A stretch of DNA of 20,398 nt, taken from positions 1 to 20,398 of IMG/VR virus record IMGVR_UViG_3300035670_001469. One strand, 5' to 3'. Positions 4,508 to 20,398 of the stretch are shown one piece after another. Every line of letters begins with the position of its first letter. Position 1 is the stretch's first letter. The DNA is from a virus. The notes under the pieces were generated by a model, which worked only from the letters and a program-made list of their open reading frames with translations, ran no database searches and was not told the origin of the DNA. The position numbers and the translations under genes were made by a program.

Positions 4508-4566
4508 TGTGTCCGTGAGCGGAGCCCCTGCGCCTACCATCATTGGCAATCGCAGGAGCTCCGCGC

Positions 4567-6951
4567 ATGACCACCCCATCCACCGCCCGCAAGGCTGGCC
4601 CGTTCAACGGCAACGGGTCGACCACCTCGTTCCCGTTCACGTTCAAGGTCTTCGCGGCCGCTGACATCGCCGTCACCATCGCCAACAGCCTGGGCGTGGA
4701 AACCGCGCTGGTGCTCGACACCGACTACAGCGTGAGCCTGAACGCGAACCAGGAGACCAGCCCCGGCGGCACGATCACCTACCCGATCAGCGGCACGCCC
4801 CTGGCCATTGGCAGCGTGCTCGCCATCGTCGGCGACCTTGACTACGACCAGCCCCTCGATTTGCCGAGCGGTGGCAACTTCTCGCCGCTCGCGCTCGAGA
4901 ACCAGCTCGACCGCACGGTCATGCAGATCCAGCAGCTGCGCGAGGAGGTGGAGCGCTCACTGCGCACCAGCGTCACGACCGGCGCCGATGTCGAGCTGCC
5001 AGCCCCTGAGGCCAACGCATTTATTGGCTGGAACTCTGGGGCCACTGGCCTGCAGAACGTGCAGCTTGAGGACTTGGCCACCGCCGTGGCCTACGCCACG
5101 ATGCGTTACGACACGTTCACCGGTGACGGTGTGACGACGCAGTTCACGCTGCAGACTGACCCGGCCACGCTGGGCAACATGGACGTGTCCGTCGACGGCC
5201 AGACCTACGTGCCCGGCACCGACCACACACTGGTCGGCCAGAACGTCGTGTTCACCGTGGCCCCCATTCTCGGCGCCGAGATCCTGGTGCGTTATGGCCA
5301 AGGGGTGGTGGTTGCCACCGCCGATGCACAGGACGTGAGCTACTTGCCCGCAGGCACCGGAGCCGTCGCCACGACTGTGCAGGCCAAGCTGCGCGAGACG
5401 GTGTCAGTGCGGGATTTTAATGCTGTTGGTGATGGGGTGACGGATGACACAGCTGCAATTCAGGCAGCTATAACATCGTTATCCGCTACTGGCGGCACTG
5501 TATTTTTTCCAAAGGGAACTTACAAGACTGATAGCGGAGTAACGCTTGTAAGTAATCTGACGTTGCAGGGTGAAACTGGTGCAGTAATCAAACCAAGCGA
5601 TTCTGTCCCATTATGGGCCTATCGTGGGGTATCGACCAACAATGTGAAAGTCATTGATCTGACGTTTGAAGGTACCGGAACAGCATTCACGAACGGAAAC
5701 CAACGGCTCCTTCAGATCGAGACTGGTTCCAACATTGAGATCACCGGATGCAACTTCACCAAGGCGCGAGAGGGCGGTGTCTCGCTTAACGGGTGTTCGT
5801 TCGCAATAGTTTCTAATTCGAGCTTCACGAGCTGCTACGGGACGGGGCTAACTACTCGCGACGGGTGTTCAAAAATCACAGTCGATTCGTGCGTTTTCTA
5901 TCTGAACGGCGACACAGGTGTTGCGACTAACGCGGCTGGTCGTGGTCTGCTCTTTTGGGAGACTTCTAACTCGGTCGCGTCAAACTGCGTATTTGAAGGA
6001 AACACTGAATACGGTCTGCGCCTTTACTCTCAGACAGGCGACTCGGAAGCCAACCGCAACATCGCGATTAGTAACTGCGCATTCCGTGACAACGGCACCA
6101 CGGCAACAGGCAAGAGCGACCTCTACATCTACAACGAACACGGCGACACCGAGCGGGTGGTTGTCACCGGCTGCACGTTCTCCACGCGAACCGGCAACAC
6201 TGGTGCCGTGATGAGTGGAACGAACATGACGCTATCTGGATGCTCTTTCAAAGCCATCACGCCGCGATCGAGCAACCATGCCGTGTCCCTGTACGGCGCG
6301 ACGAATGTGGTGTGCGTAGGTAATGTAATTCAGGATTTTGGTTCTGCCTTCAACATGTCGGCGTCCGTTGGGCACGTAACTACGAACTGCACGATGGCCG
6401 ACAACCAGATTGATGGTGTCGTCGAATTCTCTGGCGGTGGAATTGTTGGGACGGGGAACGTGATCTCGAACAACCGGATCAAACACGGCGGCGCTGGAGC
6501 TTCCGATGTCTGCTTCACGATGACGACCGCCAACACGAACTGCAGCATCGTAGGGAACTACGTCGATAGCTTCTATCGCGGGTTTAATCTGGCGTCGTCA
6601 GGGGCATTGATCGCCATTAGGAATAACACCGTAGTCGGGTCCACCGGCACCGGGTTCTTCGCGCAGTACAACACCGACCTCAGCAACCAGATCATCGACG
6701 GGAACGGTTTCGACTCTGCATACCCCAACATGTTCGGGCAGTTCAGAAAGCCGTCAGTTCACAGCTTCGCCCGTTCGACATTTTGGACGAACGTTGTGCC
6801 TTCGTCCGGTGGGGTCGGCGGCGGCGCGAACGTCCAGTGGAAAGTGGGCGACCGCGCCTTCAATAACACACCGGCCGTAGGCCAGCCGAAGTCTTGGGTT
6901 TGCACTGTTGCGGGCGCGCCTGGCACATGGGTCAGCGAAGGCAACCTGTAA
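4567..6951 (+). CDS. Tail spike with pectate-lyase-like beta-helix
   Basis: 794 aa from an ATG with an AGGAG site eight bases upstream. Residues 1-135 form a podovirus fibre-type anchor, including a FPFTFKVF segment and a helical heptad stretch near 115-140 that would trimerise the stalk. A second small beta domain follows (about 180-270). From about residue 277 there is a pectate-lyase-superfamily entry motif, DFNAVGDGVTDDTAAIQAAI, and then repeated Asn/Gly/Cys-rich strands of a right-handed beta-helix to about residue 730. A short C-terminal domain ends the protein. It should be the receptor-binding spike and may cleave surface polysaccharide; no catalytic residues can be assigned by eye. 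The beta-helix section (about 5400 to 6780) is clearly poorer in GC, with A/T third positions, than both ends, which points to an imported module. Confidence 0.9.
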   Translation: MTTPSTARKAGPFNGNGSTTSFPFTFKVFAAADIAVTIANSLGVETALVLDTDYSVSLNANQETSPGGTITYPISGTPLAIGSVLAIVGDLDYDQPLDLPSGGNFSPLALENQLDRTVMQIQQLREEVERSLRTSVTTGADVELPAPEANAFIGWNSGATGLQNVQLEDLATAVAYATMRYDTFTGDGVTTQFTLQTDPATLGNMDVSVDGQTYVPGTDHTLVGQNVVFTVAPILGAEILVRYGQGVVVATADAQDVSYLPAGTGAVATTVQAKLRETVSVRDFNAVGDGVTDDTAAIQAAITSLSATGGTVFFPKGTYKTDSGVTLVSNLTLQGETGAVIKPSDSVPLWAYRGVSTNNVKVIDLTFEGTGTAFTNGNQRLLQIETGSNIEITGCNFTKAREGGVSLNGCSFAIVSNSSFTSCYGTGLTTRDGCSKITVDSCVFYLNGDTGVATNAAGRGLLFWETSNSVASNCVFEGNTEYGLRLYSQTGDSEANRNIAISNCAFRDNGTTATGKSDLYIYNEHGDTERVVVTGCTFSTRTGNTGAVMSGTNMTLSGCSFKAITPRSSNHAVSLYGATNVVCVGNVIQDFGSAFNMSASVGHVTTNCTMADNQIDGVVEFSGGGIVGTGNVISNNRIKHGGAGASDVCFTMTTANTNCSIVGNYVDSFYRGFNLASSGALIAIRNNTVVGSTGTGFFAQYNTDLSNQIIDGNGFDSAYPNMFGQFRKPSVHSFARSTFWTNVVPSSGGVGGGANVQWKVGDRAFNNTPAVGQPKSWVCTVAGAPGTWVSEGNL

Positions 6952-7936: not shown

Positions 7937-8326
7937 ATGGACCCGGTGAGCGCAATCCTCGGCATCGGCGGCAAGCTGATCGACCGCCTGTGGCCCGACC
8001 CCGAGCAAAAGGCGCAGGCGCAGCTGGCGCTCCTTGAGCTCGCGCAGAAGGGTGAGCTCGCCGAGTTCACCGGCCGCGCCGAGATCGTCAAGACCGAAGC
8101 GGCCTCCAACCACTGGCTCGCCGCCAACTGGCGACCGCTCACGATGCTGACCTTCTGCGGTCTCATCGTCGCCCGCTGGTTCGGCTGGGCCGCGCCCAAC
8201 CTGTCCGAGGCCGAGTACTTGAAGCTCTGGTCGATTGTCGAGTTTGGCCTCGGCGGCTACGTCGTCGGGCGCAGTGTTGAGAAGATCGTTCCGGCGGCCG
8301 CGGCCGCGCTGAAAGGGAGCAAATGA
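7937..8326 (+). CDS. 3TM-type holin
   Basis: 129 aa. The ATG lies two bases after the endolysin stop. The start MDPVSAILGIGGKLIDRLWPDP followed by a charged helix and NHWLAANWRPLTM matches the 3TM holin family first described for gene-transfer-agent release. Hydrophobic segments lie at the N-terminus, near residues 62-82 (a WRPLTMLTFCGLIVARWF helix) and near 95-112 (a glycine-rich helix). It should form the inner-membrane hole that lets the GH108 enzyme reach the wall. The 3' end overlaps the next start by ATGA, and the C-terminus is basic (LKGSK). No Rz/Rz1 pair was found beside it. Confidence 0.88.
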   Translation: MDPVSAILGIGGKLIDRLWPDPEQKAQAQLALLELAQKGELAEFTGRAEIVKTEAASNHWLAANWRPLTMLTFCGLIVARWFGWAAPNLSEAEYLKLWSIVEFGLGGYVVGRSVEKIVPAAAAALKGSK

Positions 8327-9534
8327 GCAATGCCCGCTTTAACCAGATCAAGTTGATGGACGTGCGCCACTTCGGCGCCGCCGCCGACGGGGTCACCAAC
8401 GACGCGGCGGCCATCCAGGCCGCCATCAACGCGGTCAACGCGGCCGGGGGCGGCGTCGTCAAACTGCCGGCCGGCGTCATGAAGATCGGCGCCGCGCTCG
8501 CGCTCTACAGCGGCGTGATCCTGCAGGGGGAGGGCAGTCAGGCCACCACCCTGAGCTACACGGGCGCTGCCCAGGCGCTGGTGCAGGCCACCCCGGGCAC
8601 GCGCATCTACGGCGTGGGGGTGCGCGGCATCAAGTTCTCGGACGCCGGCACCGGCACCATCGGCCTCGATCTCAACTCGGTCAGCACCGGCGTGTTTGAG
8701 GACCTGATCGTTGACGGCTTTGCCACCGCGGTGAGTCTGACCGGCAGCAACGGTTACTGCGTCTACAACCGCTTCACCAACGTGACCGCCGCCAACAGCA
8801 CCACCGGCTTCGTGATCGGTGCCGCCGGCAGCAACAGCAACACGTTCATGGCCTGCCGGGCCAACGTCTGCACCACCGGCTGGGCCATCACCGACAGCAA
8901 CCAGAACCAGCTGATCGGCTGCCAGCTCGAGGGCGGCACGACCGGGGTGTCGATCACCTCCACCGGCGCGAGCCTCGCCGATCGCAACACGATCGCGTTC
9001 TGCCGCTTTGAGAGCAACACCATCAACGTCAACATCACAAGCTCGAACGTGCGCGAGACGGCGCTCATTGCCAACCACGCGGTGAGCGGCAGCTCGACCG
9101 ACAGCGGCCAACGCACCCTGGCGCTGGAACCGTTCGGTGCCAGTGGCCTCAACTGGGCGGTGCAGTCGGCCGCGCTGTCCAGCCTCGCCGGGCACTTCCG
9201 CTTCGTGCGCTCCTCCAACGCCCACATCGCGGGCGACACGGGGGACCCCGCACCGACCCCGGCCATGGTGATCGCCGACACGGTGACGGGCACCGGCAAC
9301 CCGATCACGCTGCAGATCGAGACCGGCCGGGCGACAGGTTCGTTCGTCAAGGGCGTGCGCGCGGGCGCCACCTTCTTTGAGGCCTACGCCTCGGGCGCGC
9401 TCGGCATCGCCGACGGGATCACGGCGCCGGCCACGGTGGCGGGCATGGCCCAGCTCTACGTCGACACCGCCGACGGCGACCTCAAGGTCAAGTTCGGCGA
9501 CGGCACGGTCAAGACCATCGTCGTCGACACCTAA
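8323..9534 (+). CDS. Second tail spike, beta-helix without N-terminal anchor
   Basis: 403 aa. The ATG overlaps the holin stop and has a GGGAG site. Only about 14 residues precede the pectate-lyase-superfamily entry motif HFGAAADGVTNDAAAIQAAI, so there is no virion-anchor domain of the kind seen in the first spike. Gly/Asn/Ser/Thr-rich beta-helix rungs follow to about residue 270. A compact C-terminal domain ends LYVDTADGDLKVKFGDGT, as in many phage spikes. Codon use matches the late genes (high GC), unlike the first spike's beta-helix. It may dock on the first spike to make a branched receptor-binding complex or act as a free depolymerase; that is inference. Its TAA overlaps the stop of the convergent HTH gene. 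Confidence 0.85.
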   Translation: MSNARFNQIKLMDVRHFGAAADGVTNDAAAIQAAINAVNAAGGGVVKLPAGVMKIGAALALYSGVILQGEGSQATTLSYTGAAQALVQATPGTRIYGVGVRGIKFSDAGTGTIGLDLNSVSTGVFEDLIVDGFATAVSLTGSNGYCVYNRFTNVTAANSTTGFVIGAAGSNSNTFMACRANVCTTGWAITDSNQNQLIGCQLEGGTTGVSITSTGASLADRNTIAFCRFESNTINVNITSSNVRETALIANHAVSGSSTDSGQRTLALEPFGASGLNWAVQSAALSSLAGHFRFVRSSNAHIAGDTGDPAPTPAMVIADTVTGTGNPITLQIETGRATGSFVKGVRAGATFFEAYASGALGIADGITAPATVAGMAQLYVDTADGDLKVKFGDGTVKTIVVDT

Positions 9535-12400: not shown

Positions 12401-12501
12401 AGCAGAGCGTCGGGGTATTTGCTGAGGTCGGGTTTGACTTTGGGTGGTGGGGTGAGGGGCTTGTCCTTTGTGGGGAACGGCCAGTTGGCGGGATGGGTCA
12501 T
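12397..12501 (-). CDS. 34-aa proline/lysine-rich ORF
   Basis: ATG to TGA, MTHPANWPFPTKDKPLTPPP followed by KVKPDLSKYPDALL. It was found by following the chain of ATGA overlaps: its ATG overlaps the stop of the upstream 73-aa gene, and its stop overlaps the start of the downstream gene. The perfect fit between two neighbours is the main support. No domain is recognised; it is proline-rich and probably unstructured. Confidence 0.62.
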   Translation of the reverse strand: MTHPANWPFPTKDKPLTPPPKVKPDLSKYPDALL

Positions 12502-12719
12502 GATTGGCCCCTTGCGCGGATGGCGTTGGCGATGTACTTCGGGTGCTGAACGTCAAGCCCCTCAACCATCTCAGCACACGCCTCACGTTCGGCAGCGGCG
12601 ACAAGGGCGGCGAAGCCGATAAGGGCTGGCAGCATAAAAAAGCCCTGAGATGGAAATGGACTATCCGGCAACTTGATGCCAGCCTCCCGCGCCATGCGGA
12701 TGATGTCGTCGCGGGTCAC
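12498..12719 (-). CDS. 73-aa phage protein
   Basis: GTG start overlapping the upstream stop (GTGA), preceded by a G-rich GGGGGTGAGG. The N-terminus MTRDDIIRMAREAG is a helix pattern seen in many small phage early proteins. A hydrophobic, alanine-rich middle (FFMLPALIGFAALVAAAE) could be a buried or membrane helix. The C-terminal segment ends YIANAIRARGQS. No function known. Confidence 0.78.
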   Translation of the reverse strand: MTRDDIIRMAREAGIKLPDSPFPSQGFFMLPALIGFAALVAAAEREACAEMVEGLDVQHPKYIANAIRARGQS

Positions 12720-12880
12720 GCCTCACCCCCTTCGCTGTCGGCCATGCCGGCGATGATCTTCATCGCGGCCTGGAGCTCGGCCTCCAGGCGCTCGTTGCGG
12801 GCGCGCAGCAGGCGGTTCTCTTGCTCAAGCTCGCTGACGTCGGCGACCAGCAGGTCGAGCTCACGTTCCTGTTCTGTCAT
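12716..12880 (-). CDS. 54-aa coiled-coil protein
   Basis: ATG at 12880 with AAGGA five bases upstream, MTEQERELDLLVADVSELEQ. Residues 3-42 make one continuous acidic/basic coiled coil with leucines at heptad positions. It is a typical small phage accessory protein; the partner is unknown. One base separates it from the VRR-NUC stop upstream, so it belongs to the same transcript. Confidence 0.78.
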   Translation of the reverse strand: MTEQERELDLLVADVSELEQENRLLRARNERLEAELQAAMKIIAGMADSEGGEA

Positions 12881-12881
12881 G

Positions 12882-13163
12882 TCAGTCCTTTCCAAATAGT
12901 TCTTCGACACCCTCGATGCTGTCGATCACTCGGACACACTGGCCAAGCTCGCGCATCCGCAGGTGTTCACGCATTTGATGAGGTTTGGGCTTTTCGCCGG
13001 GTGCCTTGAGCTCGACCCAGATTGCTGCGGGTTTACCGAATTGCCCTAGCATCACCAGGCGATCGGGCGCGCCCTTGCGACCGATCCACTGGACCTTGCG
13101 GCACTCACCGCCCAGCTCTTTCACCCGCTTGACCAGGTGCTTCTCGACGTCGCTCTCCCTCAT
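12882..13163 (-). CDS. VRR-NUC nuclease
   Basis: 93 aa from the ATG at 13163, overlapping the previous stop (ATGA). PD-(D/E)XK-type VRR-NUC layout: helix with E7, GAPDRLVM (D34), then IWVELKAPGEKP (E51, K53) and Q63. All catalytic positions are present. Stand-alone VRR-NUC proteins are common in phage replication cassettes and are predicted structure-specific or Holliday-junction-type nucleases. It should process replication or recombination intermediates together with the SNF2 helicase. Confidence 0.92.
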   Translation of the reverse strand: MRESDVEKHLVKRVKELGGECRKVQWIGRKGAPDRLVMLGQFGKPAAIWVELKAPGEKPKPHQMREHLRMRELGQCVRVIDSIEGVEELFGKD

Positions 13164-13369
13164 AGTGCGCTCACCACGATGATGGCCAGGTAGGCGATGC
13201 CGACCGAGATCAGCACCCACTTGGCCAGCTTGTTGACCTGGCGCCGCCAGCGGATCTCAGCCCGCAGCTGCACCGGGTGCGCGGGGTAGCGCTGGCCGAT
13301 CTTGCTGCCGGTGCGCACGGGGCAGTCACGCCCCTGGCGGCAGTTGCCGTACTCATCGCAGCAGCTCAT
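13160..13369 (-). CDS. 69-aa protein, Cys-rich N-terminus and C-terminal TM helix
   Basis: ATG at 13369, overlapping the stop of the previous gene. The N-terminus MSCCDEYGNCRQGRDC carries five cysteines in 16 residues and is followed by a basic linker. Residues 50-68 (AKWVLISVGIAYLAIIVVSAL) are a single membrane helix at the very C-terminus. It looks like a tail-anchored inner-membrane protein with a cytoplasmic metal or disulfide knuckle. The role is unknown; host takeover or exclusion is a guess. Confidence 0.78.
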   Translation of the reverse strand: MSCCDEYGNCRQGRDCPVRTGSKIGQRYPAHPVQLRAEIRWRRQVNKLAKWVLISVGIAYLAIIVVSAL

Positions 13370-13530
13370 GCCAGCGCTCCTTGCTGCAGGCGCTGCAGCA
13401 GTCGGAACTTGCGCCAGGTGCGGCGCACGTCGGTGGCGGCGGCGCAGCGCCACCGGAACTTGGGGTCGGTGCAGTGCCGGCTTGGCATCGTGACTTTGGC
13501 CCCGGCGGGGGCGTTGTTGTAGACGTTCAC
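13366..13530 (-). CDS. 54-aa hypothetical protein, first gene of the helicase operon
   Basis: The GTG start is chosen because GAAAGGA lies eight bases upstream and the same leader (GAAAGGACT...GTG) precedes the gene at 18455. The peptide is basic (KFRWRCAAATDVRRTWRKF), with two cysteines, and starts VNVYNNAPAGAK. No domain was recognised; a small nucleic-acid-binding protein is possible. It lies directly downstream of promoter d. Confidence 0.72.
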   Translation of the reverse strand: MNVYNNAPAGAKVTMPSRHCTDPKFRWRCAAATDVRRTWRKFRLLQRLQQGALA

Positions 13531-13563
13531 CGTGTGAGTCCTTTCATGGTTGGCGACAGGGAA

Positions 13564-13592
13564 AGTGTAGCAGATGCTAAATGCCGGGCTTA
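13564..13592 (-). promoter_or_regulatory. Leftward promoter with operator d
   Basis: Perfect TAGCA-GA-TGCTA palindrome (13568-13579). On the minus strand CTGC-TACACT is an extended -10 (13564-13569), with TAAGCC 17 bases upstream as a weak -35. The stop codon TAG of the DNA polymerase lies inside the operator. The leader down to the GTG start at 13530 closely resembles that of promoter e. Confidence 0.65.
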
Positions 13593-15370
13593 TATCCAAC
13601 GTCCTTGAGAATCGATTCGGCCTCGCTGATGTACCAGTCTCGATTCAGGTCAAACGGAATTGATTCCGGCATATCCATCAGGGGCTTTGCGCCTTCGCTG
13701 CGTGGCACCTTGTAGCCGTTGACCTTGTAGGTGAGCGGGGCACCCACGCCTTGCGCGTAGTACCAGCGCACAGCTCGACCAAGGTACTTTCCATCCTGGT
13801 CGACACCCCCGCCTTTGACCTGGCGGATCGTCACAAACTTGCGGATGTCGGTGCAGTTATTGATCGTCTCGGCCACGGGCTTGCCGGTCTTCAAGAACTC
13901 CCTGGCGGCTTCGCTGCAGATCTCGTTGGTCGGGTTTTTCTGCAGTCCAGCGGGGGCGTACACGCCTTTGAGTTTGGCAGTTCCGTCGGGCTTGACGGCG
14001 ATGTAGTTGTTGACGTCCCTGGAGTACAGGGATCGGTACAGCGTGGCCTCTGTCTCAAACCCGGTCATTTGCTCCCAGGTGAATACTGCGGCGTCCATCG
14101 TCGACTTCAGTTCTTTCGGGCACTTGATCACCACGCCGTCGGTGTTGGCCGACACGACACTCACGCCGTTGTTCTCCAGCATCTCGATGAGCATCAGCAA
14201 CGACAGCTGGCCGGTGAGAGTTACTTGGATCAGCAGATCCGGCGAGTACAGCGCCGACCACTTACTGCCCAGCTTTCCGAAAGATCCGTTGATCGTGATC
14301 TTCAGGCTGTCCGCGGTCACGGTGTCTTTGTTCCGCTTGGCCTCCAAGCGGCGCGTCACCAAAGACTGGTAGACCTTGATGAATGGTCGACCCAAGTGTT
14401 TTGGATACAGGCCGCAGCCAAGGATGATGGCGGGGTAGTAGCTGGCGACGTCACGGTCCACCAAGATGGTGTGCTCGTCCGCGTGATGCGCCACGCAAGA
14501 TTCGGTCGAATGTAGGCCACCGACACCCATCTGGTAGGTGCTCCCGCCCAGCGTCAGCTTGAGGTTGCTGATCTCCTTTGGCAGCAAGATAGATCCGCCG
14601 TCGCTGACAAACATGTCAGCCGATGTCACGATCTCCAAAGCATCGCGCAGCACCTGGCTCTCGAAGTTGATGAAGAACGGCGGGGTGTACTTGTACAGCG
14701 TCCCAGCGGCAATGGTTGGGCGCTCAATCTTTCGGGCCAGCAGGCTGGTGACCCTGGACTTGATTACCGCTTCAGCGATCTGCGCGTCCGACTTGCTACG
14801 CAGATCAATTCCGTACTCGTCTGACATGGAGATGCGCAGATTGACCTGCGGTTGCAGCTTGTTCCACAGATCAAGCGTTGCCACCGTGTCGGAGTTGATG
14901 CAGTAGTCCTTGAGCATCTCCCTGCCATCGGCGTCGATGCTGTCCCCTGGTTCAATGGGAAGGTCCTGCAGGCGCTTGGAATGCAATCGACCTGCGTAGA
15001 TCTTCAGGCTGGCCATTCCTGGCGCCACATCAAACAAGTCGATGTGATCCCAGTCGGGGATCTTGCAGTTGAACCGATCCTCAAACTGAAAAGGTTGGAT
15101 GTTCAAGTTGATGATCGTGTCGGCGGCTTTCTTTAAGAGGTCACAACTGGCACCAGTTAGAGCCAACGCCACAAGCGGAGCGTCGAATCGTTTGCCGTTG
15201 AAGCTCACAATGGTTCGCGTGGCCATGTACCGGCGCAGTCGCTGAATGTCCATCGGGTGACCGTCGTACTGCTCAAACGCCGTTGTGGCACCGGTGGCAA
15301 CGTTGCGAAAACCGACAAGGAAGTAGTTGCGATAGACCTCGATGTCGAAAATCTCAATGGGCTTGGTCAT
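13577..15370 (-). CDS. Family B-type DNA polymerase
   Basis: 597 aa. The ATG overlaps the HNH gene's stop (ATGA). The 3'-5' exonuclease domain has Exo I FDIEVY (D9, E11), Exo II SFNGKRFD (N58, D63) and Exo III YCINSD (Y156, D161). Polymerase motif A is DVASYYP (D307), motif B KITINGSFG (K357, N361, G365) and motif C ANTDGV (D411). Only about 45 residues separate motifs A and B, so the TPR1 insertion of protein-primed phage polymerases is absent. This points to ordinary RNA- or DNA-primed synthesis. The spacing in Exo III is one residue longer than the common Y-x3-D. It would copy phage DNA together with the helicase, ssDNA-binding protein and nucleases nearby. GC is moderately lower than in neighbouring genes. 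Confidence 0.92.
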   Translation of the reverse strand: MTKPIEIFDIEVYRNYFLVGFRNVATGATTAFEQYDGHPMDIQRLRRYMATRTIVSFNGKRFDAPLVALALTGASCDLLKKAADTIINLNIQPFQFEDRFNCKIPDWDHIDLFDVAPGMASLKIYAGRLHSKRLQDLPIEPGDSIDADGREMLKDYCINSDTVATLDLWNKLQPQVNLRISMSDEYGIDLRSKSDAQIAEAVIKSRVTSLLARKIERPTIAAGTLYKYTPPFFINFESQVLRDALEIVTSADMFVSDGGSILLPKEISNLKLTLGGSTYQMGVGGLHSTESCVAHHADEHTILVDRDVASYYPAIILGCGLYPKHLGRPFIKVYQSLVTRRLEAKRNKDTVTADSLKITINGSFGKLGSKWSALYSPDLLIQVTLTGQLSLLMLIEMLENNGVSVVSANTDGVVIKCPKELKSTMDAAVFTWEQMTGFETEATLYRSLYSRDVNNYIAVKPDGTAKLKGVYAPAGLQKNPTNEICSEAAREFLKTGKPVAETINNCTDIRKFVTIRQVKGGGVDQDGKYLGRAVRWYYAQGVGAPLTYKVNGYKVPRSEGAKPLMDMPESIPFDLNRDWYISEAESILKDVGYKPGI

Positions 15371-15855
15371 TTACCCACCCACTTGGCTGCAGTGCGGTGT
15401 GCCACACGCTCACCGTGCGCGGCCTGGGCGATCGAGTGGTAAGCCTTGCCGCTGGGGCTGACGACCTGCTTGGCCTGAGTGTTGAGACCGAGCTCGACCG
15501 CATGCCGTTTGTTGTCGGCACGGCTGGACCACTCAAGGTTGATCACGCGGCAGTTGGACTTGCGACCGTCCCGGTGGTTGACCTCGGGCAACCCGTCTGG
15601 GTTTGGGATGAACGCCTTGGCCACAAGCGTGTGAACGGTATGCGCTTTGCGCTTGCCCTCGGTGTCGTACAGGTGAACGATGAAATACCCGCTGTTGGTG
15701 ATCTGGCGACTGATCAGGCGCTCTTTGGTTGTGCGCCAGGCCTCCTGGCCATTGCGCAACAGGTAACGCTGCTTGAACGCTGTCGACTTGACGTCGCCAA
15801 GATCGCTGACTTGGTAGCGCCCGTCGTAGCCTGGGATGTCTTTCCACTGTTCCAT
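15367..15855 (-). CDS. HNH homing endonuclease (NUMOD4-HNH-NUMOD1)
   Basis: 162 aa from the ATG at 15855. Residues 1-45 are a NUMOD4 domain (WKDIPGYDGRYQVSDLGDVKS). Residues 70-112 carry the HNH core (H75, N93-H94 in VNHRDG, N106 in RVINLEW). Residues 130-160 (SPSGKAYHSIAQAAHGE) look like a NUMOD1 DNA-binding helix. The family makes site-specific nicks or breaks and spreads its own gene; it favours replication genes, and here it sits directly before the polymerase with an ATGA overlap. Longer in-frame starts (to 15924) run into a strong hairpin and lack family similarity. The ribosome site is weak (GAAAGCAG). A large inverted repeat lies just upstream and may restrain expression. Confidence 0.9.
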   Translation of the reverse strand: MEQWKDIPGYDGRYQVSDLGDVKSTAFKQRYLLRNGQEAWRTTKERLISRQITNSGYFIVHLYDTEGKRKAHTVHTLVAKAFIPNPDGLPEVNHRDGRKSNCRVINLEWSSRADNKRHAVELGLNTQAKQVVSPSGKAYHSIAQAAHGERVAHRTAAKWVGK

Positions 15856-15867
15856 TTGCTGCTTTCG

Positions 15868-15927
15868 TTTTTGGTGAGGGCCGGTGGTCTCCGCCGGGAA
15901 CTCCCAGCGGCCGACCCTCACCAAAAA
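15868..15927 (-). repeat. 13-bp perfect inverted repeat upstream of the HNH gene
   Basis: TTTTTGGTGAGGG (15868-15880) pairs with CCCTCACCAAAAA (15915-15927) over a 34-base loop that can form further short hairpins. Either strand has A residues after the stem, so it is not a standard terminator. It ends 12 bases before the HNH start. It may shield translation of the endonuclease. Confidence 0.6.
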
Positions 15928-15938
15928 ACACCCGTTCC

Positions 15939-16028
15939 GAGGCTTCCCTGTGAATGCTTACGGCTCTGCCAGGGTGGGTCGGTGGCCGCCGCTGAACATC
16001 TCGCGGGAACGGCGGCCACCTAAGCCTC
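15939..16028 (-). ncRNA. Candidate three-way-junction RNA between ssDNA-binding and HNH genes
   Basis: Nested inverted repeats: closing stem GAGGCTT/AAGCCTC (15939-15945 with 16022-16028). Inside are CCCTG/CAGGG (15946-15950 with 15970-15974) and the perfect 11-bp GGTGGCCGCCG/CGGCGGCCACC (15981-15991 with 16010-16020). Another hairpin, GGCTGG/CCAGCC (16037-16042 with 16052-16057), lies beside it. A 13-codon ATG ORF (15958-15999, minus) is embedded in it. No RNA family was recognised. The fold is on paper only; the strand is assumed from the surrounding operon. Confidence 0.4.
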
Positions 16029-16083
16029 AGCTGGTTGGCTGGTGGGTGAGTCCAGCCGGGAGGGATGCAGAGCCCCGCGTGAT

Positions 16084-16659
16084 TTAGGCGAAGTCCTCGG
16101 CGGCAGCGCCTTCGGTGACTTCCTCGAACTCGTCGGCGTCTGCAGGACGGCCGGCGCTGAAGCTGTCGCCGTCCTTGAAGAACTGGATGCCACGCAGGGT
16201 GCAGTTGATCCGCTTTCCGTAGGCGTTGTCCTGGGCCCAGAACTCCAGGCTCGCGTTCACGTAGCAGCCAGCGTAGGGGCGGCCGCTGCGCTGGCTCAGG
16301 GGCGAGCGGTCACGGTCGATGACGGTGGGCGCAGCGTTCTCCTGCGCAGCTGCGGTCACGAAAAAGTTGCCCGGGAACCCGTCGTACTGGGCCTTCTCGT
16401 CGCCGTCGTGCAGCGCGACCTTGCCAGTCTTGTACAGGCCAGCCAGCAGGGCGGTGGCCTTCTCGCGCCACTTCTCCTTGGCGATGGCGTCGATCTTGCG
16501 CTTGATCTCCTCGAGCTGCGCGTGGTCGGCGGGCATCAGCAGCGTGGCGCTGTAGCGGGGCTTGCCTTCACCGTTGACGGTGGTCGGCTCGAACAGGTTG
16601 GGGAAGGCCAGGCGCACGTCTTTGAGGAGGATGCGGCCGATGGGTTGGTTGGTGGACAT
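16084..16659 (-). CDS. DUF2815 ssDNA-binding protein
   Basis: 191 aa. The ATG at 16659 has a strong GAAAGGAAA site; a farther ATG at 16743 lacks one and would add an unrelated stretch. The opening MSTNQPIGRILLKDVRLAFPN followed by LFEPTTVNGEGKPRYSATLL matches DUF2815. The middle holds the conserved PYAGCYVNASLEFWAQDN, and the tail is acidic (DEFEEVTEGAAAEDF), as in other ssDNA-binding proteins that recruit partners by an acidic end. It should coat single-stranded phage DNA during replication and recombination. It forms the usual pair with the DUF2800 gene directly upstream. Confidence 0.9.
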   Translation of the reverse strand: MSTNQPIGRILLKDVRLAFPNLFEPTTVNGEGKPRYSATLLMPADHAQLEEIKRKIDAIAKEKWREKATALLAGLYKTGKVALHDGDEKAQYDGFPGNFFVTAAAQENAAPTVIDRDRSPLSQRSGRPYAGCYVNASLEFWAQDNAYGKRINCTLRGIQFFKDGDSFSAGRPADADEFEEVTEGAAAEDFA

Positions 16660-16692
16660 GGTGAGTTTCCTTTCAGGGGTTGAGTTGTCGTA

Positions 16693-16713
16693 CACAGCCC
16701 GCCCTTGGCTGTG
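16693..16713. repeat. 7-bp hairpin in the DUF2815 gene leader
   Basis: CACAGCC (16693-16699) pairs with GGCTGTG (16707-16713) over a 7-base loop, 34 bases before the DUF2815 start. No T-run follows on the transcribed strand, so this is not a terminator. It may stabilise or pace translation of the mRNA. Confidence 0.35.
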
Positions 16714-16746
16714 CAAAATTTGGCGGGCGTAGGTTCCAAACATGGT

Positions 16747-18039
16747 TTAGGCGAGGTCTGCGGTCACGTCGGTGAAGTCATCAACGACCGGCGTGACCAC
16801 GAGGGCCGGGCGTGAGTCGGAATCGGGCGCCACGTGGGGCTTGCCCTCGGATTGGGTGATGAGCTCCTGGAGCTTGGGCCACTGGCGCGGGCCGATCGTG
16901 CCGGACTTGGCTAGCTTCTCGGCCGTCGTCGGGCTGATGAGCTTGAAGTCGTACATGTCCTCGAGCTTCACGCGCATGGCCTTAAGGGTTTCCTCAGCGG
17001 CCTTGGCGTCGGCCCACTGGCGTGCGCCCTTCTTGCCTGCCACGACCTTGAAGCCTGGCACCGTGTCGCCCGCCAGCAGGCGGCGCTCGGCCTCGGCGCG
17101 GACCGCCTTGCACCAGTCCTCGATCATGTCGACGCGGGTGAGGGCGGCAGCAACCCAGTCGGCGGGCGAGTGCTCGTTGGGTTCGCTGACGTAGGCCTGC
17201 GCGAACTCATCGGGGCTGGCCGGCGTTGCACCAAGGACCGTGTCGGCCACCTCATCGCGCAGGGCAGGGCAGGTGGCCTTGGCCTTGCAAAACTTGCAGG
17301 CTTTCTCGGCGGGGCGCAGGAAACGCATTTGCCAGATCGGATCGTTCTCGTCGAGGTTGCTGGCGTTGACGCAGTCCACCACCGCGCTGCGCGCAGTGGA
17401 CCGGCCCCAGGTCTCGAGCTCGTCGACGCTGCAGTCCCACTCACTGGGTGCGCGCTTCACGCGGGGCTGGCTGATGGCCATGCGCACGCGGCTGAAGTCG
17501 GCGACCAGCCCCTGGTAGGCCTGCAGGGCGCCGAGCCCGTACAGCGACATCTGCGGGTTTTGCATGGCGTCGACCTCGACACCGCGGCCGTACTTGAAGT
17601 CGACGACGATGAGCTCATCACCGCGGGCGATGATCACGTCGGCGGTGCCCCAGGCGGTGTCGGCCTCGACATCCAGGTAGCTGGAGTAGTTGACTCGGAT
17701 GTCGGCGAACAGCACGCCGTCGTCGCCGCGCAGGTCGACGCAGTAGTCGATGCACGCCTGGACGTGCTCGGCCATTTCGAGGTCAACCTCGAATTGGTAC
17801 TGAGCTTCAGCCGGCTCGCAGGGCTTGCCTGCGGTGTTGAGGTGCACCAGGCGGCCAACGTAGGCGCTGGCCGGGCGGTCTTCCTGCAGCGCCCAGGTCA
17901 GGACCTGGTGCGCAGCGGTGCCCTCGGCAGCGTAGACGTTGGTGTTGTCCGGTGCGCCGTCCTCGAGCACGATCTTGCCCGGGCAGAGCATGATCGACTC
18001 AAACTTGCTGGCGGACCAGTAGGAATGGGCGGCGGTCAT
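16747..18039 (-). CDS. DUF2800, Cas4/RecB-like Fe-S exonuclease
   Basis: 430 aa from the ATG at 18039, which lies two bases after the upstream stop with GAGG seven bases before it. A TTG two codons earlier is the alternative. The PD-(D/E)XK nuclease core is visible: EGTAAH (E39, H44), GTADV (D134) and VVDFKYG (D147, K149). Cysteines C19, C248, C251 and C257 are placed like the Fe-S cluster of Cas4/AddB-type nucleases (CKFCKAKATC). Phage DUF2800 proteins sit beside DUF2815 and polymerase genes. It should resect DNA ends to give 3' single strands for the neighbouring ssDNA-binding protein. The polarity is not visible from sequence. Confidence 0.9.
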   Translation of the reverse strand: MTAAHSYWSASKFESIMLCPGKIVLEDGAPDNTNVYAAEGTAAHQVLTWALQEDRPASAYVGRLVHLNTAGKPCEPAEAQYQFEVDLEMAEHVQACIDYCVDLRGDDGVLFADIRVNYSSYLDVEADTAWGTADVIIARGDELIVVDFKYGRGVEVDAMQNPQMSLYGLGALQAYQGLVADFSRVRMAISQPRVKRAPSEWDCSVDELETWGRSTARSAVVDCVNASNLDENDPIWQMRFLRPAEKACKFCKAKATCPALRDEVADTVLGATPASPDEFAQAYVSEPNEHSPADWVAAALTRVDMIEDWCKAVRAEAERRLLAGDTVPGFKVVAGKKGARQWADAKAAEETLKAMRVKLEDMYDFKLISPTTAEKLAKSGTIGPRQWPKLQELITQSEGKPHVAPDSDSRPALVVTPVVDDFTDVTADLA

Positions 18040-18041
18040 GA

Positions 18042-18455
18042 TCAAGCCTCAATAATGGCTAGGCGCTCGTTGACGGCTTCCAGCGCGTCGGCCCACTTGG
18101 ACTGGTCGAGCTCCTTGAACGTCTTTACGCCCAGGCTGGCGGCCACTGCTGCAGCTGCTTCGCGGCTCTTGCCGGCCAGCGCGAACACGGCCTTTTGCAG
18201 GGTGGGGTAGTCAACCGACGGTGCAGCCTTCTCAGGCTCGACGGGCGCAGCGACCGGGGCTGGGACATCGGTGGGCGCCACAGTAGGCAGGGGCTGGGCA
18301 ACCTCCTGCACGGGGGCAGGCTTGGCAGCTTTCGCTGCCTTCTCCTGCTTTGGGGCGGGCGCTTCCTCCGCGCTGACCAGGGCCGAGGCGGGGATCTCGA
18401 GCAGAGCGGCGCGGGCGGCCTCGATGCTTCGGAAGTTGAGGGTGATGGCGATCAC
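18042..18455 (-). CDS. 137-aa protein with Ala/Pro linker and helical C-domain
   Basis: The GTG start is supported by GAAAGGA seven bases upstream and by the leader shared with the 13530 gene. The N-terminal part (IAITLNFRSIEAARAALLEIP) is a small alpha/beta piece. Residues 28-75 are an Ala/Pro/Glu/Lys linker. The C-terminal 55 residues (VDYPTLQKAVFALAGKSREA onward, with LGVKTFKELDQ) form a helical domain often seen at the ends of phage replication-associated proteins. The function is unknown. As the first gene of the nuclease/ssDNA-binding operon it may be a scaffold. Confidence 0.8.
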   Translation of the reverse strand: MIAITLNFRSIEAARAALLEIPASALVSAEEAPAPKQEKAAKAAKPAPVQEVAQPLPTVAPTDVPAPVAAPVEPEKAAPSVDYPTLQKAVFALAGKSREAAAAVAASLGVKTFKELDQSKWADALEAVNERLAIIEA

Positions 18456-18486
18456 AGTGCAGTCCTTTCGCAGTTGGTGAAATTGG

Positions 18487-18515
18487 AGTGTAGCGGATGC
18501 TACAGCCCCGGGCAA
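18487..18515 (-). promoter_or_regulatory. Leftward promoter with operator e
   Basis: -35 TTGCCC (18510-18515), 17-base spacer, -10 TACACT (18487-18492). The operator TAGCG-GA-TGCTA (18491-18502, one mismatch) spans the spacer and -10. It drives the 18455 gene and through it the nuclease, ssDNA-binding protein, HNH and polymerase genes. Confidence 0.68.
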
Positions 18516-18519
18516 AAAA

Positions 18520-18600
18520 TTAGATGTTGTAGGCCAGGGTGAGGCCCAGGCCGATGCCGATGGCGGCGGCCAGCAGGATGGAGAGGATCTTGTCTTTCAT
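18520..18600 (-). CDS. 26-aa single-pass membrane peptide
   Basis: ATG to TAA; MKDKILSILLAAAIGIGLGL then TLAYNI. A short basic start is followed by a glycine-rich hydrophobic helix. It begins 11 bases after the stop of the 72-aa gene, on the same strand. The ribosome site is weak (GAAAGA). Composition and placement support expression. Function unknown; toxin-like or membrane-regulator peptides have this look. Confidence 0.55.
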   Translation of the reverse strand: MKDKILSILLAAAIGIGLGLTLAYNI

Positions 18601-18611
18601 GGCGGGGTCTT

Positions 18612-18830
18612 TCAGTAGCCGAGGACGCGGGCGGCGCCGGTGCGGTTGTAGACGCGCTCGCTTTCGATCTCGGTGCGGCGGGTGCTGCCGTTGAAGATGA
18701 CCGACAGGCTGCGGATGTCGACCGCGTAGAAACCAGGGAAAGTTTCGACAACGTCAGCGCGGGGTTGAGGCACGCCACCTTCGTGGCTGTTGGCGAAGGC
18801 TGCGACGAATTGGGCTTCGTGGAAGTTCAT
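18612..18830 (-). CDS. 72-aa hypothetical protein
   Basis: ATG at 18830, MNFHEAQFVAAFANSHEGGV. The middle is likely beta-rich (FPGFYAVDIRSLSVIFNGS). The C-terminal part is basic with RVYNRTGAARVLGY. No domain was recognised. There is no clear Shine-Dalgarno; the gene lies at the end of a possible structured leader RNA that starts at promoter f. Confidence 0.68.
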   Translation of the reverse strand: MNFHEAQFVAAFANSHEGGVPQPRADVVETFPGFYAVDIRSLSVIFNGSTRRTEIESERVYNRTGAARVLGY

Positions 18831-18856
18831 GTTCAGGCTTCGGTTGTGTTTAGGGT

Positions 18857-18990
18857 ATCGACATCGGCCAGCTTGTCTTGCCGGGGAGGTGGCGCTGGTT
18901 AGGCTTCCTCCGCTGAGTGCCCCTCGTCGTGGCGGTCGGGGCCCTTGTTCGCAACTACCCTAGAGCGGGTTGCTGGCTATCGATGTCGAT
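18857..18990 (-). ncRNA. Candidate four-way-junction leader RNA
   Basis: A 16-bp closing stem with a 3-base bulge joins 18857-18872 and 18972-18990 (ATCGACATCG + GCCAGC against GCTGGC, TAT, CGATGTCGAT). Three hairpins lie inside: GGAGG/CCTCC (18885-18889, 18907-18911), GCCCC/GGGGC (18919-18923, 18938-18942) and ACCC/GGGT (18957-18960, 18967-18970). It begins about 12 bases after the predicted start of transcription from promoter f. The alternative is a TTG-started 34-codon ORF in the same stretch. No RNA family was recognised. Confidence 0.42.
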
Positions 18991-19008
18991 GACTGAACTC
19001 TAGCACAA

Positions 19009-19037
19009 GTGTTAGCAACTGCTACAACCCCCGCCAA
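19009..19037 (-). promoter_or_regulatory. Leftward promoter with operator f (double site)
   Basis: -35 TTGGCG (19032-19037), 17-base spacer, -10 TAACAC (19009-19014) in an extended -10 context, TTGC-TAACAC. A perfect operator, TAGCA-AC-TGCTA (19013-19024), overlaps the -10. A second near-palindrome, CTAGCACAAGTGTTAG (19000-19015), abuts it. It should drive the 18830 and 18600 genes. Confidence 0.62.
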
Positions 19038-19038
19038 T

Positions 19039-19066
19039 AAAAAAAACCCCACGCGATGGTGGGGTT
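19039..19066 (-). terminator. Rho-independent terminator of the repressor operon
   Basis: Stem AACCCCAC/GTGGGGTT (19045-19052 with 19059-19066), six-base loop, then six U on the minus-strand transcript (19044-19039). It lies 25 bases after the stop of the 55-aa gene. It separates the lysogenic transcript from promoter f, whose -35 begins right after the U-tract. Confidence 0.88.
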
Positions 19067-19090
19067 CTTCGCGCTCAGGCTTGAGCTAGA

Positions 19091-19258
19091 TCAGAGGTGC
19101 CAGCCCGTGGCGAGCAGCACCCAGGTGACGATCAGACCCAGGGCGGACAGGCCGATGGCCCAGCGGATCTGTCGTCGCAAGCTGTCCAACGGGTCGTCCC
19201 AGACGCCGCCGTGTTCCACCAAGTACTGGATGCGCTGCTTGATCTCTTCGTTCGTCAT
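19091..19258 (-). CDS. 55-aa membrane protein co-transcribed with the repressor
   Basis: The ATG overlaps the repressor stop (ATGA). MTNEEIKQRIQYLVEHGGVW and a charged stretch (DDPLDSLRRQIR) are followed by one membrane helix (WAIGLSALGLIVTWVLLATGW) near the C-terminus. It is part of the two-gene lysogenic operon ended by the terminator at 19039-19066, so it should be made in the prophage state. Superinfection exclusion or control of the repressor are reasonable ideas. No family was recognised. Confidence 0.78.
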   Translation of the reverse strand: MTNEEIKQRIQYLVEHGGVWDDPLDSLRRQIRWAIGLSALGLIVTWVLLATGWHL

Positions 19259-19683
19259 GACTTGCCGCTCCCTCGAGCAAGAGTTATGAGTTTCTGGATG
19301 TACTGCTCGTCAATGCGCCCGGTCAGTTTGGCCCGGTCATAGGCAAGCTGCACAAGCGTGCCGTAGGTGTCGGGGTCCGGTCTGAGACCGGCGTCACGCA
19401 ACGTGGTGGCCACTGCCCGCACCACCTCGGTCAGCGCCGCGTCGTTGAGCTGCTGCCCGCCGGCGGGGTGGTCCTGGTCCATCCAGCCCACGGGCAGGCC
19501 GAGCTTGCCCTCGATCTCGCGGGCGACTTTTTCGCTGATGTCGCGCGACGGGTGGGGCCCGGCGATCTGGGCGATGTAGCTGCCGTTCGCGTGGCCGAGC
19601 TTGCGACTCATGGACGTCGGGCCACCCCACTGGCCAATGAGCGTGCGCAGGTTCAGCCGGCGGGTTTCGTACACACTGATCAT
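19255..19683 (-). CDS. CI-like phage repressor without peptidase domain
   Basis: 142 aa. The ATG at 19683 is eight bases below a -10 (TAGGGT), suggesting a leaderless message; a GTG three codons on, with GGAG nine bases before it, is the alternative. Residues 8-65 (RRLNLRTLIGQWGGPTSMSR, KLGHANGSYIAQIAG, ending GLPVGWMD) form a HTH domain of the XRE/phage-repressor type. The C-terminal 70 residues are helical (LNDAALTEVVRAVATTLRDA) and may dimerise. No S24/LexA-type cleavage domain is present, so RecA-driven self-cleavage is not expected. It lies divergent from a Cro-like gene, and the shared operator has a degenerate copy of the window-wide palindrome. Confidence 0.85.
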   Translation of the reverse strand: MISVYETRRLNLRTLIGQWGGPTSMSRKLGHANGSYIAQIAGPHPSRDISEKVAREIEGKLGLPVGWMDQDHPAGGQQLNDAALTEVVRAVATTLRDAGLRPDPDTYGTLVQLAYDRAKLTGRIDEQYIQKLITLARGSGKS

Positions 19684-19691
19684 CTCCGGCC

Positions 19692-19720
19692 ACCCTAGCC
19701 TGTCTTTCAACTTGCTGCAA
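19692..19720 (-). promoter_or_regulatory. Repressor promoter
   Basis: -35 TTGCAG (19715-19720), 17-base spacer, -10 TAGGGT (19692-19697), ending nine bases before the repressor ATG. Its -35 lies in CTTGCTGCAAG (19711-19721), where the divergent promoter's weak -35 also lies. Confidence 0.6.
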
Positions 19721-19742
19721 GCGTTTTACAACCTGCTAAACT
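19714..19742 (+). promoter_or_regulatory. Rightward early promoter with operator g
   Basis: Extended -10, CTGC-TAAACT (-10 at 19737-19742), ending seven bases before the Cro-like ATG. The operator TACAA-CC-TGCTA (19727-19738) fills the spacer and -10. The -35 region (GCTGCA, or TTGCTG at 19 bases) is poor, as is common with extended -10 promoters. It drives the rightward early operon. Confidence 0.62.
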
Positions 19743-19749
19743 CGCGGGC

Positions 19750-20076
19750 ATGAAAACCATCTCCGTCGTCAAGAATTGGATGAGCTTGGCCACGGTCGAG
19801 GAGCAGCAGCTCCTGGCCGAGCGTGCCGGCACCTCCCGCGGCTACCTGTACCAGCTCTCGGGCGGTCACCGCCAGGCCTCGGCCGAGCTCGGCGCCGCCA
19901 TCGAGCGCGAGAGCAAGGTCATGGCCCGGGCCAGCAAGGGCCGCCTGCCTGTCATCTACCGCACCGACATCGTCGCCGCCTGCCGGGCCTGCGACTTCGC
20001 CCAGCGGTGTCTCGGCGAGCGTGCGGTGGTGTCCGAGTTTCCGATCGTCGGCAAAATCGAGGAGATCAGCGCATGA
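19750..20076 (+). CDS. YdaS/Cro-like HTH regulator with Cys motif
   Basis: 108 aa. The ATG is seven bases after the -10 and has no Shine-Dalgarno, so a leaderless start is likely. Residues 8-50 (NWMSLATVEEQQLLAERAGT then SRGYLYQLSGGHRQAS) form a YdaS-type HTH. The C-terminal half has CRACDFAQRC (C-x2-C-x5-C), a possible metal site, and a short beta-rich end. Position opposite the repressor and control by the same operator make it the Cro-like lytic switch protein. YdaS-family members can also act in toxin-antitoxin pairs, but no toxin gene is visible beside it. Confidence 0.85.
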   Translation: MKTISVVKNWMSLATVEEQQLLAERAGTSRGYLYQLSGGHRQASAELGAAIERESKVMARASKGRLPVIYRTDIVAACRACDFAQRCLGERAVVSEFPIVGKIEEISA

Positions 20077-20213
20077 GCGTGTTGTGGATGATCATCTGCT
20101 TCTGGGCCGGTGGCCTGATCGGATTCTTCGCGGCCACGTTGATGATCATGACCGGTCGGGCCAGCCGCGAGCTCGAGGACATGGAGCGCACGCTGCGGGG
20201 CCCGCGTGATTGA
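20073..20213 (+). CDS. 46-aa membrane protein in the rightward early operon
   Basis: The ATG overlaps the Cro-like stop (ATGA). MSVLWMIICFWAGGLIGFFA and the following residues (to about 27) form one membrane helix at the N-terminus. A short charged tail follows (RASRELEDMERTLRGPRD). It is coupled to both neighbours by overlap. Function unknown; small membrane proteins of this size in early operons often alter host envelope or division processes. Confidence 0.72.
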   Translation: MSVLWMIICFWAGGLIGFFAATLMIMTGRASRELEDMERTLRGPRD

Positions 20214-20379
20214 CCTGCTGCAGGTCGGCATGCGCGTGCTGCTGCCCAGCGGCAACATCGTGCTGCTCGTGCGCCGTGAGCGCGCCGAGTGGATCTGCAC
20301 CTACACCGAGCTCGCCCGGGCCCGCGGTGAGGTGGTCTTCACCGGCGCTTGGCTGCGCCGTCACGGTGTGCGCGCTTGA
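20206..20379 (+). CDS. 57-aa hypothetical protein
   Basis: GTG start overlapping the previous stop (GTGATTGA). The peptide has VLLPSGNIVLLVRRERAEWI, Trp-containing strands and a basic end (GAWLRRHGVRA). It looks like a small beta-barrel (SH3- or KOW-like) fold, but no family was recognised. The TGA overlaps the TTGAC at the window edge. Codon use matches the neighbours, and the overlap supports translation. Confidence 0.65.
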   Translation: MIDLLQVGMRVLLPSGNIVLLVRRERAEWICTYTELARARGEVVFTGAWLRRHGVRA

Positions 20380-20398
20380 CTTTGCCATCTGCTAAAGT
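20377..20398 (+). promoter_or_regulatory. Operator h / promoter at window edge
   Basis: TTGACT followed by TGCCA-TC-TGCTA (20383-20394, two mismatches) and an extended -10-like CTGC-TAAAGT at the last bases. A second reading uses TTGACT as -35 with the -10 just outside the window. Either way, another operator-controlled rightward transcript should begin here. Confidence 0.5.

Follow-up and report, generated by a model that had tools for sequence, protein, structure and literature searches.

The sequence studied is a 20.4-kb virus record (IMGVR_UViG_3300035670_001469), hereafter called the window, i.e. the whole stretch of DNA that was analysed. On its minus strand, the genes for a DUF2800 exonuclease and an ssDNA-binding protein (SSB), a spacer, and the genes for an HNH endonuclease, a 597-aa DNA polymerase, a nuclease and an SNF2 helicase follow one another in an order similar to that of Bordetella phage BPP-1. 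Since the neighbouring genes all lie on the minus strand, the transcript to consider is that of the minus strand, which runs from the SSB gene through the spacer and the HNH gene to the DNA polymerase. A search of the window for tRNAs and tmRNAs yielded none. Two proteins predicted on the plus strand (4543-6951 and 8323-9534) have a common motif (GDGVTDDTAAIQAAI and ADGVTNDAAAIQAAI), which was read by eye from the list of open reading frames and is one known from beta-helix tail proteins. The genes around the spacer are as follows.

18045-16747, minus strand: DUF2800 exonuclease gene
16084-16743, minus strand: SSB gene, encoding an Enc34/DUF2815 ssDNA-binding protein (Pfam PF10991, 3e-40; phrog_112), the upstream neighbour of module A
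15367-15855, minus strand: HNH endonuclease gene (NUMOD4 and HNH_3 by Pfam), cargo in the slot behind module A and outside the element
15370-13577, minus strand: 597-aa DNA polymerase gene

The spacer consists of two modules, A (15928-16080, minus strand) and B (15868-15927). The predicted fold of module A has four nested helices (X, P2, P3 and H4), three pseudoknot helices (H1, PKa and PKb) and a few near-invariant unpaired residues, and its length is about 145-161 nt in nearly all members of the family described below. The parts of the two modules are listed here, with the fraction of pairs changed on both sides and of cells paired among the members.

15928-16080, minus strand: module A, a 153-nt pseudoknotted RNA element (140 bits and E 5e-28 with CM R2, the window being in the training set)
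16074-16078, minus strand: 5' strand of PKa (GCGGG), nearly invariant, pairing with 16003-16007
16003-16007, minus strand: 3' strand of PKa (CCCGC), in the P3 loop
16067-16073, minus strand: 5' strand of H1, pairing with 15963-15969 as a pseudoknot across P2
15963-15969, minus strand: 3' strand of H1
16037-16057, minus strand: hairpin X, stem 16052-16057 with 16037-16042, loop ACUCACCCA (6/6 pairs changed on both sides; 96% of cells paired)
16044-16048, minus strand: 5' strand of PKb (CACCC), in the X loop, pairing with 15929-15933
15929-15933, minus strand: 3' strand of PKb (GGGUG), the 3' tail of module A, abutting the U-tract
16022-16030, minus strand: 5' strand of P2, pairing with 15937-15945 (9/9 pairs; 95.6% of cells)
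15937-15945, minus strand: 3' strand of P2
15981-16020, minus strand: hairpin P3, 16010-16020 with 15981-15991 (11/11 pairs; 84% of cells)
15946-15974, minus strand: H4, 15970-15974 with 15946-15950, enclosing the 3' strand of H1 (5/5 pairs; 77% of cells; the weakest helix)
15923-15928, minus strand: U-tract UUUUUU right behind PKb, which is also most of the 5' foot of module B
15868-15927, minus strand: module B, a hairpin with the stem UUUUUGGUGAGGG/CCCUCACCAAAAA and a variable interior

A preliminary description of this stretch had reported a dense RNA-like structure in the spacer. The helices named there are present, namely a 13-bp inverted repeat (15868-15880 with 15915-15927), an 11-bp arm (15981-15991 with 16010-16020; hairpin P3) and a 6-bp hairpin (16037-16042 with 16052-16057; the stem of hairpin X). 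Comparison with shuffled sequences, which had been proposed as a check, gave better folding than the shuffles on both strands (plus strand, originally delimited interval: z = -3.49; minus strand, complete spacer: z = -4.84; 0/200 shuffles as good in each case). The structure therefore stands, whereas its strand and length had to be revised: the element belongs to the minus-strand transcript and extends beyond the earlier limit as far as 16080, a position 3 nt away from the stop codon of SSB. The three long-range pseudoknot helices, which are invisible to a nested fold, had been missed. A 13-codon ORF that had been considered as a possible leader peptide is not conserved, and several members lack any ATG in the element.

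Relatives of the locus were collected with the SSB protein (47 phage loci) and with an SSB alignment (best 80, on partly overlapping contigs), and in many of these SSB relatives, the stop codon of SSB is immediately followed by a relative of the window spacer. The helices were first read in 12 members (alignment A1), in which 87.6% of the cells pair and 21/48 pairs changed on both sides; the covariation score was 0.409, compared with 0.184 after shuffling and at most 0.142 with the partners slid. A CM built from these 12 members recovered ten further loci at E < 1e-3. A second model allowed 36 members to be aligned, of which 21 were in the training set and 15 outside, and the CM homologues ranged from E 1e-4 to 1e-28. 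In the 36-member alignment, which leans towards the nested structure because it was fitted to it, all 31 nested pairs changed on both sides, with a score of 0.774 (0.215 shuffled, 0.124 or less slid).

The pseudoknot helices lie outside the CM and were tested by pairing the two strands of each member and, for comparison, strands exchanged among the members. In the 36 members, H1 scored z = 15.4, PKb z = 8.8 and PKa z = 2.0, the last value being low because PKa hardly varies, while two control combinations scored 0.4 and -2.8. H1, the longest-range helix of module A, thus has extreme partner-specific complementarity, and PKa was 100% paired in alignment A1, with one compensatory change from G-C to A-U. 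Covariation shows that H1 (7-8 bp) runs through the P2 domain in the predicted fold and that both ends would be locked, the 3' tail into the X loop (PKb) and the 5' end into the P3 loop (PKa), the latter pairing being mostly invariant. The helices contain 83 G-U pairs and 29 A-C mismatches, an excess to be expected if the SSB-sense strand functions as RNA. The relatives keep the shape of module A while its letters and the neighbouring genes change, which argues for a working RNA. The non-random RNA structure originally suspected is thereby borne out more strongly than a single sequence could reveal. By this comparative evidence, module A is shown to be a member of an undescribed family of predicted structured RNAs of about 150 nt, in the replication-operon transcript of BPP-1-like and BcepC6B-like phages, and the family itself is almost certainly real.

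Module A is present in about 45 phage loci, always in the same orientation and at or one gene from the end of the SSB gene, and each of the 23 A-bearing records that were searched whole has a single copy. Some relatives have unrelated spacers, an arrangement earlier regarded as counter-evidence, but these 45 or so loci share a homologous one. The carriers include the cultured Burkholderia phage BcepC6B (NC_005887; between gp38, which is its SSB, and gp37, E 2e-4), seven BcepC6B-related contigs (one only at E 0.06) and one contig of a Burkholderiales MAG (L075). Among Burkholderiales chromosomes, 1/399 genomes matched, which was the same MAG contig, and a search for plasmid homologues found none. 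Pattern scans of all viral contigs, blind to SSB, returned 6, 9 and 10 contigs. The first six were already known from the SSB search; the remaining contigs with a CM match all adjoin an SSB gene and contributed one new member (L236), and seven without a CM match (L221, L231, L232, L234, L235, L237 and L238) were treated as chance. In two members (L043 and L164), a gene separates module A from SSB; in L164, this is an uncharacterised ORF of about 200 aa (3658-4260) between the SSB hairpin and module A, which begins a few nt behind its stop. In Acinetobacter phage 4316 (L077:3556-3735), a different-looking and possibly structured spacer unmatched by the models lies behind the SSB gene.

Module A matches no family of Rfam release 15 at the thresholds used. 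None of the 4227 models matched the window at gathering. When hits with E up to 1-5 were admitted, those in the window region and in 13 further loci with module A all scored far below gathering and lay in the region of hairpin B or in other places. No description of module A was found in the literature as far as it is represented by titles and abstracts, most subscription papers lying outside this range.

Module B is a hairpin separate from module A. Its conserved stem (UUUGGUGAGGG/CCCUCACCAAA) has compensated variants (e.g. GCUUUGGCUGGGGC/GCCCCAGCCAAAGC in BPP-1), and its interior differs even between close relatives; the same stem with different interiors occurs in many relatives, before or after module A or without it, in the orders A-B (window), B-A, B-A-B, A alone and B alone. 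A B-like hairpin also precedes the polymerase of Acinetobacter phage 4316 and, by eye, that of Curvibacter phage PCA1. One copy of hairpin B (L024:5700-5780) has a tRNA-like interior and a T-arm (Rfam tRNA-Sec 28 bits, below gathering), and a minihelix resembling a T-loop occurs at another locus (L030:5770-5808); pieces of tRNA may have been acquired by hairpin B. In one phage (L005:1149-1242), overlapping inverted repeats located elsewhere (TTTGGCGA.../...CGCCAAA) are similar to the arms of hairpin B.

The genes behind module A vary. They are a polymerase of about 700 aa, the 597-aa polymerase, an HNH gene followed by a polymerase (window, L007, L008, L013 and L027), or small ORFs. The two polymerase types have no detectable similarity in the search used and share the slot behind SSB in closely related phages. 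In the BcepC6B-like phages, identity in module A reaches 93-97% (74-76% for L167, an outlier), which is above the 78-88% of SSB third codon positions (54-59% for L167), and the 200 bases 3' of module A are only 51-59% identical, i.e. unrelated. In Escherichia phage vB_EcoM-606R2 (L076:6403-6534), the gene that follows the polymerase bears a TIR-like annotation, and the region may be a hot spot for cargo or defence genes.

The preliminary description had tied the RNA to the HNH gene, as a translation-limiting hairpin like that of I-TevI, a mobile RNA partner or an intron remnant. The foot of hairpin B does lie 12 nt before the HNH start in the window, but most A-bearing relatives lack an adjoining HNH gene, and HNH relatives occupy the same interval without module A in L148 and L149. 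The HNH gene is therefore regarded as cargo placed behind the element, probably a later insert into a variable slot, and the sequence upstream of its start resembles the polymerase ribosome-binding region of HNH-less relatives. There is also no sign of an intron remnant: module A lies between complete genes, and Rfam, introns included, gave no match at the thresholds used. This reading is almost certainly wrong. The related candidates were likewise rejected, an HNH-associated RNA (HEARO or IscB guide RNA) for want of an Rfam match and because most loci have no HNH gene, and a group I or II intron remnant because no intron core was matched by Rfam and module A interrupts no gene.

The most likely role of module A is, tentatively and with not quite an even chance, that of a cis-acting folded barrier that separates the abundant expression of SSB from the genes behind it, by attenuation or by protection of the 3' end. 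The compact fold directly behind the SSB cistron would either cause partial termination of transcription at the following U-tract or block 3' exonucleases and prevent processing, with the result that SSB would be produced abundantly and the genes behind it at a lower level. The same place would be filled in simpler form by module B and by the terminator-like hairpins found in relatives. This role is favoured because relatives without module A usually have a terminator-like hairpin at that place: of 49 distinct relatives lacking module A, 36 show a strong GC hairpin no more than 70 nt from the SSB stop, compared with 2.2 expected from shuffles and 0 in the coding control. Where no such hairpin precedes it, module A lies 0-12 nt behind the SSB stop. 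Where module A adjoins the stop, an extra hairpin of this kind is usually missing, and where one is present, module A lies farther on. A UUUU follows within 18 nt behind module A in 20/36 members, as opposed to 2% of random positions, and several members have a hairpin of the type CCCCG-GAAAGA-CGGGG next after module A, mostly followed by a U-rich stretch. In the window, PKb abuts six U residues, and a simple terminator scan finds no site there or elsewhere on the minus strand of window 12500-20398.

Other observations count against the barrier. The remaining 16/36 members have no UUUU right behind module A. A whole gene stands between SSB, with its own hairpin, and module A in L164, and module A is one gene further on in L043, so that the SSB message does not end with module A in every case. 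Three pseudoknots and conserved unpaired residues are more than a simple barrier would need, and the U-tract may instead enhance translation of the gene that follows. It is possible, if on the doubtful side, that module A represents a novel type of phage RNA that has an activity of its own, be it as a stable RNA acting in trans, as a switch sensing a ligand or protein, or as a ribozyme, and that moves together with the SSB-polymerase interval whatever genes adjoin it.

Among the specific alternatives, an SSB-binding operator like that of T4 gene 32 is conceivable but rather unlikely. In this reading, SSB would recognise the pseudoknot and spread over the U-rich ribosome-binding region behind it, so that the next gene would be turned down at SSB excess. 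The nearly constant linkage to the SSB gene speaks for such an operator, as does the succession of pseudoknot, U-rich stretch and next ribosome-binding site in many members, which is the two-part make-up of the T4 operator (PMC535899). However, module A lies behind the SSB gene and not in front of it: an operator of the T4 type has its pseudoknot in the leader of the SSB gene itself, whereas the element is downstream of the SSB stop in all members. As for a U-rich region 3' of the pseudoknot, UUUU is present in 20/36 members, several members are without a U-rich stretch, and in some hairpin B intervenes. Moreover, the gene that would be regulated varies (two polymerase types, HNH, small ORFs and unrelated genes in BcepC6B-like phages).

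Unlikely, too, is a trans-acting noncoding RNA that would be processed from the operon transcript and act as a stable RNA on host RNA, the ribosome, RNA polymerase or a defence system. The conserved length and locked ends would suit it, and module A persists where its downstream flank is replaced or a gene is inserted in front (L164); its place beside SSB, however, is fixed, and no gene occurs only with module A among 13 phages with and 3 without it, a comparison of low power.

Interlocked pseudoknots and a few near-invariant unpaired residues are the sort of architecture found in small ribozymes, and a putative self-cleaving ribozyme could cut the polycistronic message. No Rfam ribozyme family matched the searched loci, however, and the derived strand order is unlike the HDV-like order, with an extra hairpin between the first two strands and a P3 loop that pairs upstream, which makes this explanation improbable. 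No better placed is processive antitermination, in which the RNA, like HK022 put, would act on RNA polymerase throughout the remainder of the operon. A partner-free cis RNA would be indifferent to the gene behind it, as observed, but the same minus-strand scan gave no terminator-like site that would need readthrough, and put differs from module A in size and fold. Least probable of these is a DNA-level element, i.e. a replication origin or recombination site with the inverted repeats as cruciforms: the element does lie in the replication module, in an interval that is a hot spot for inserted genes, but the orientation to transcription is fixed in all members, G-U pairs in the helices outnumber A-C mismatches almost threefold, and the long-range pseudoknot helices covary.

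Module A lies at a point where the output of SSB may be kept separate from that of the polymerase, in an interval that serves as a slot in which the cargo genes (HNH and others) are exchanged and the RNA is retained. In relatives of BPP-1, a functional RNA could also be targeted by host factors or defence systems. Since BcepC6B is in culture, the role of module A is directly testable.

Several known systems are comparable. Like GOLLD and ROOL, which are several times larger, module A is a structured phage RNA without a known protein partner. GOLLD and ROOL have been described as large and ornate (PMC12286853). With HK022 put, which acts as RNA alone (PMC9378689), module A would have in common that it is a phage cis RNA possibly indifferent to the downstream gene. 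It resembles intrinsic terminators and 3'-end stabilising hairpins in its position right behind a highly needed gene, in the helix before the U-tract where there is one and in the plain hairpins that take its place in relatives; it differs from intrinsic terminators in that the helix beside the U-tract is a long-range pseudoknot, the complex fold is conserved and the U-tract is not universal. The closest functional analogy is the operator of T4 gene 32, in which a pseudoknot and a U-rich initiation region are bound by the SSB gp32, with the homing endonuclease gene segG in the same interval (PMC535899). The T4 pseudoknot has about 28 nt and stands in front of gene 32, whereas module A has about 150 nt and three predicted pseudoknots and stands behind an SSB gene of another family. 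In both cases, a pseudoknotted RNA is linked to a phage SSB gene; the less structured, U-rich ribosome-binding region that follows it in T4 has a counterpart in many, though not all, members of the family of module A.
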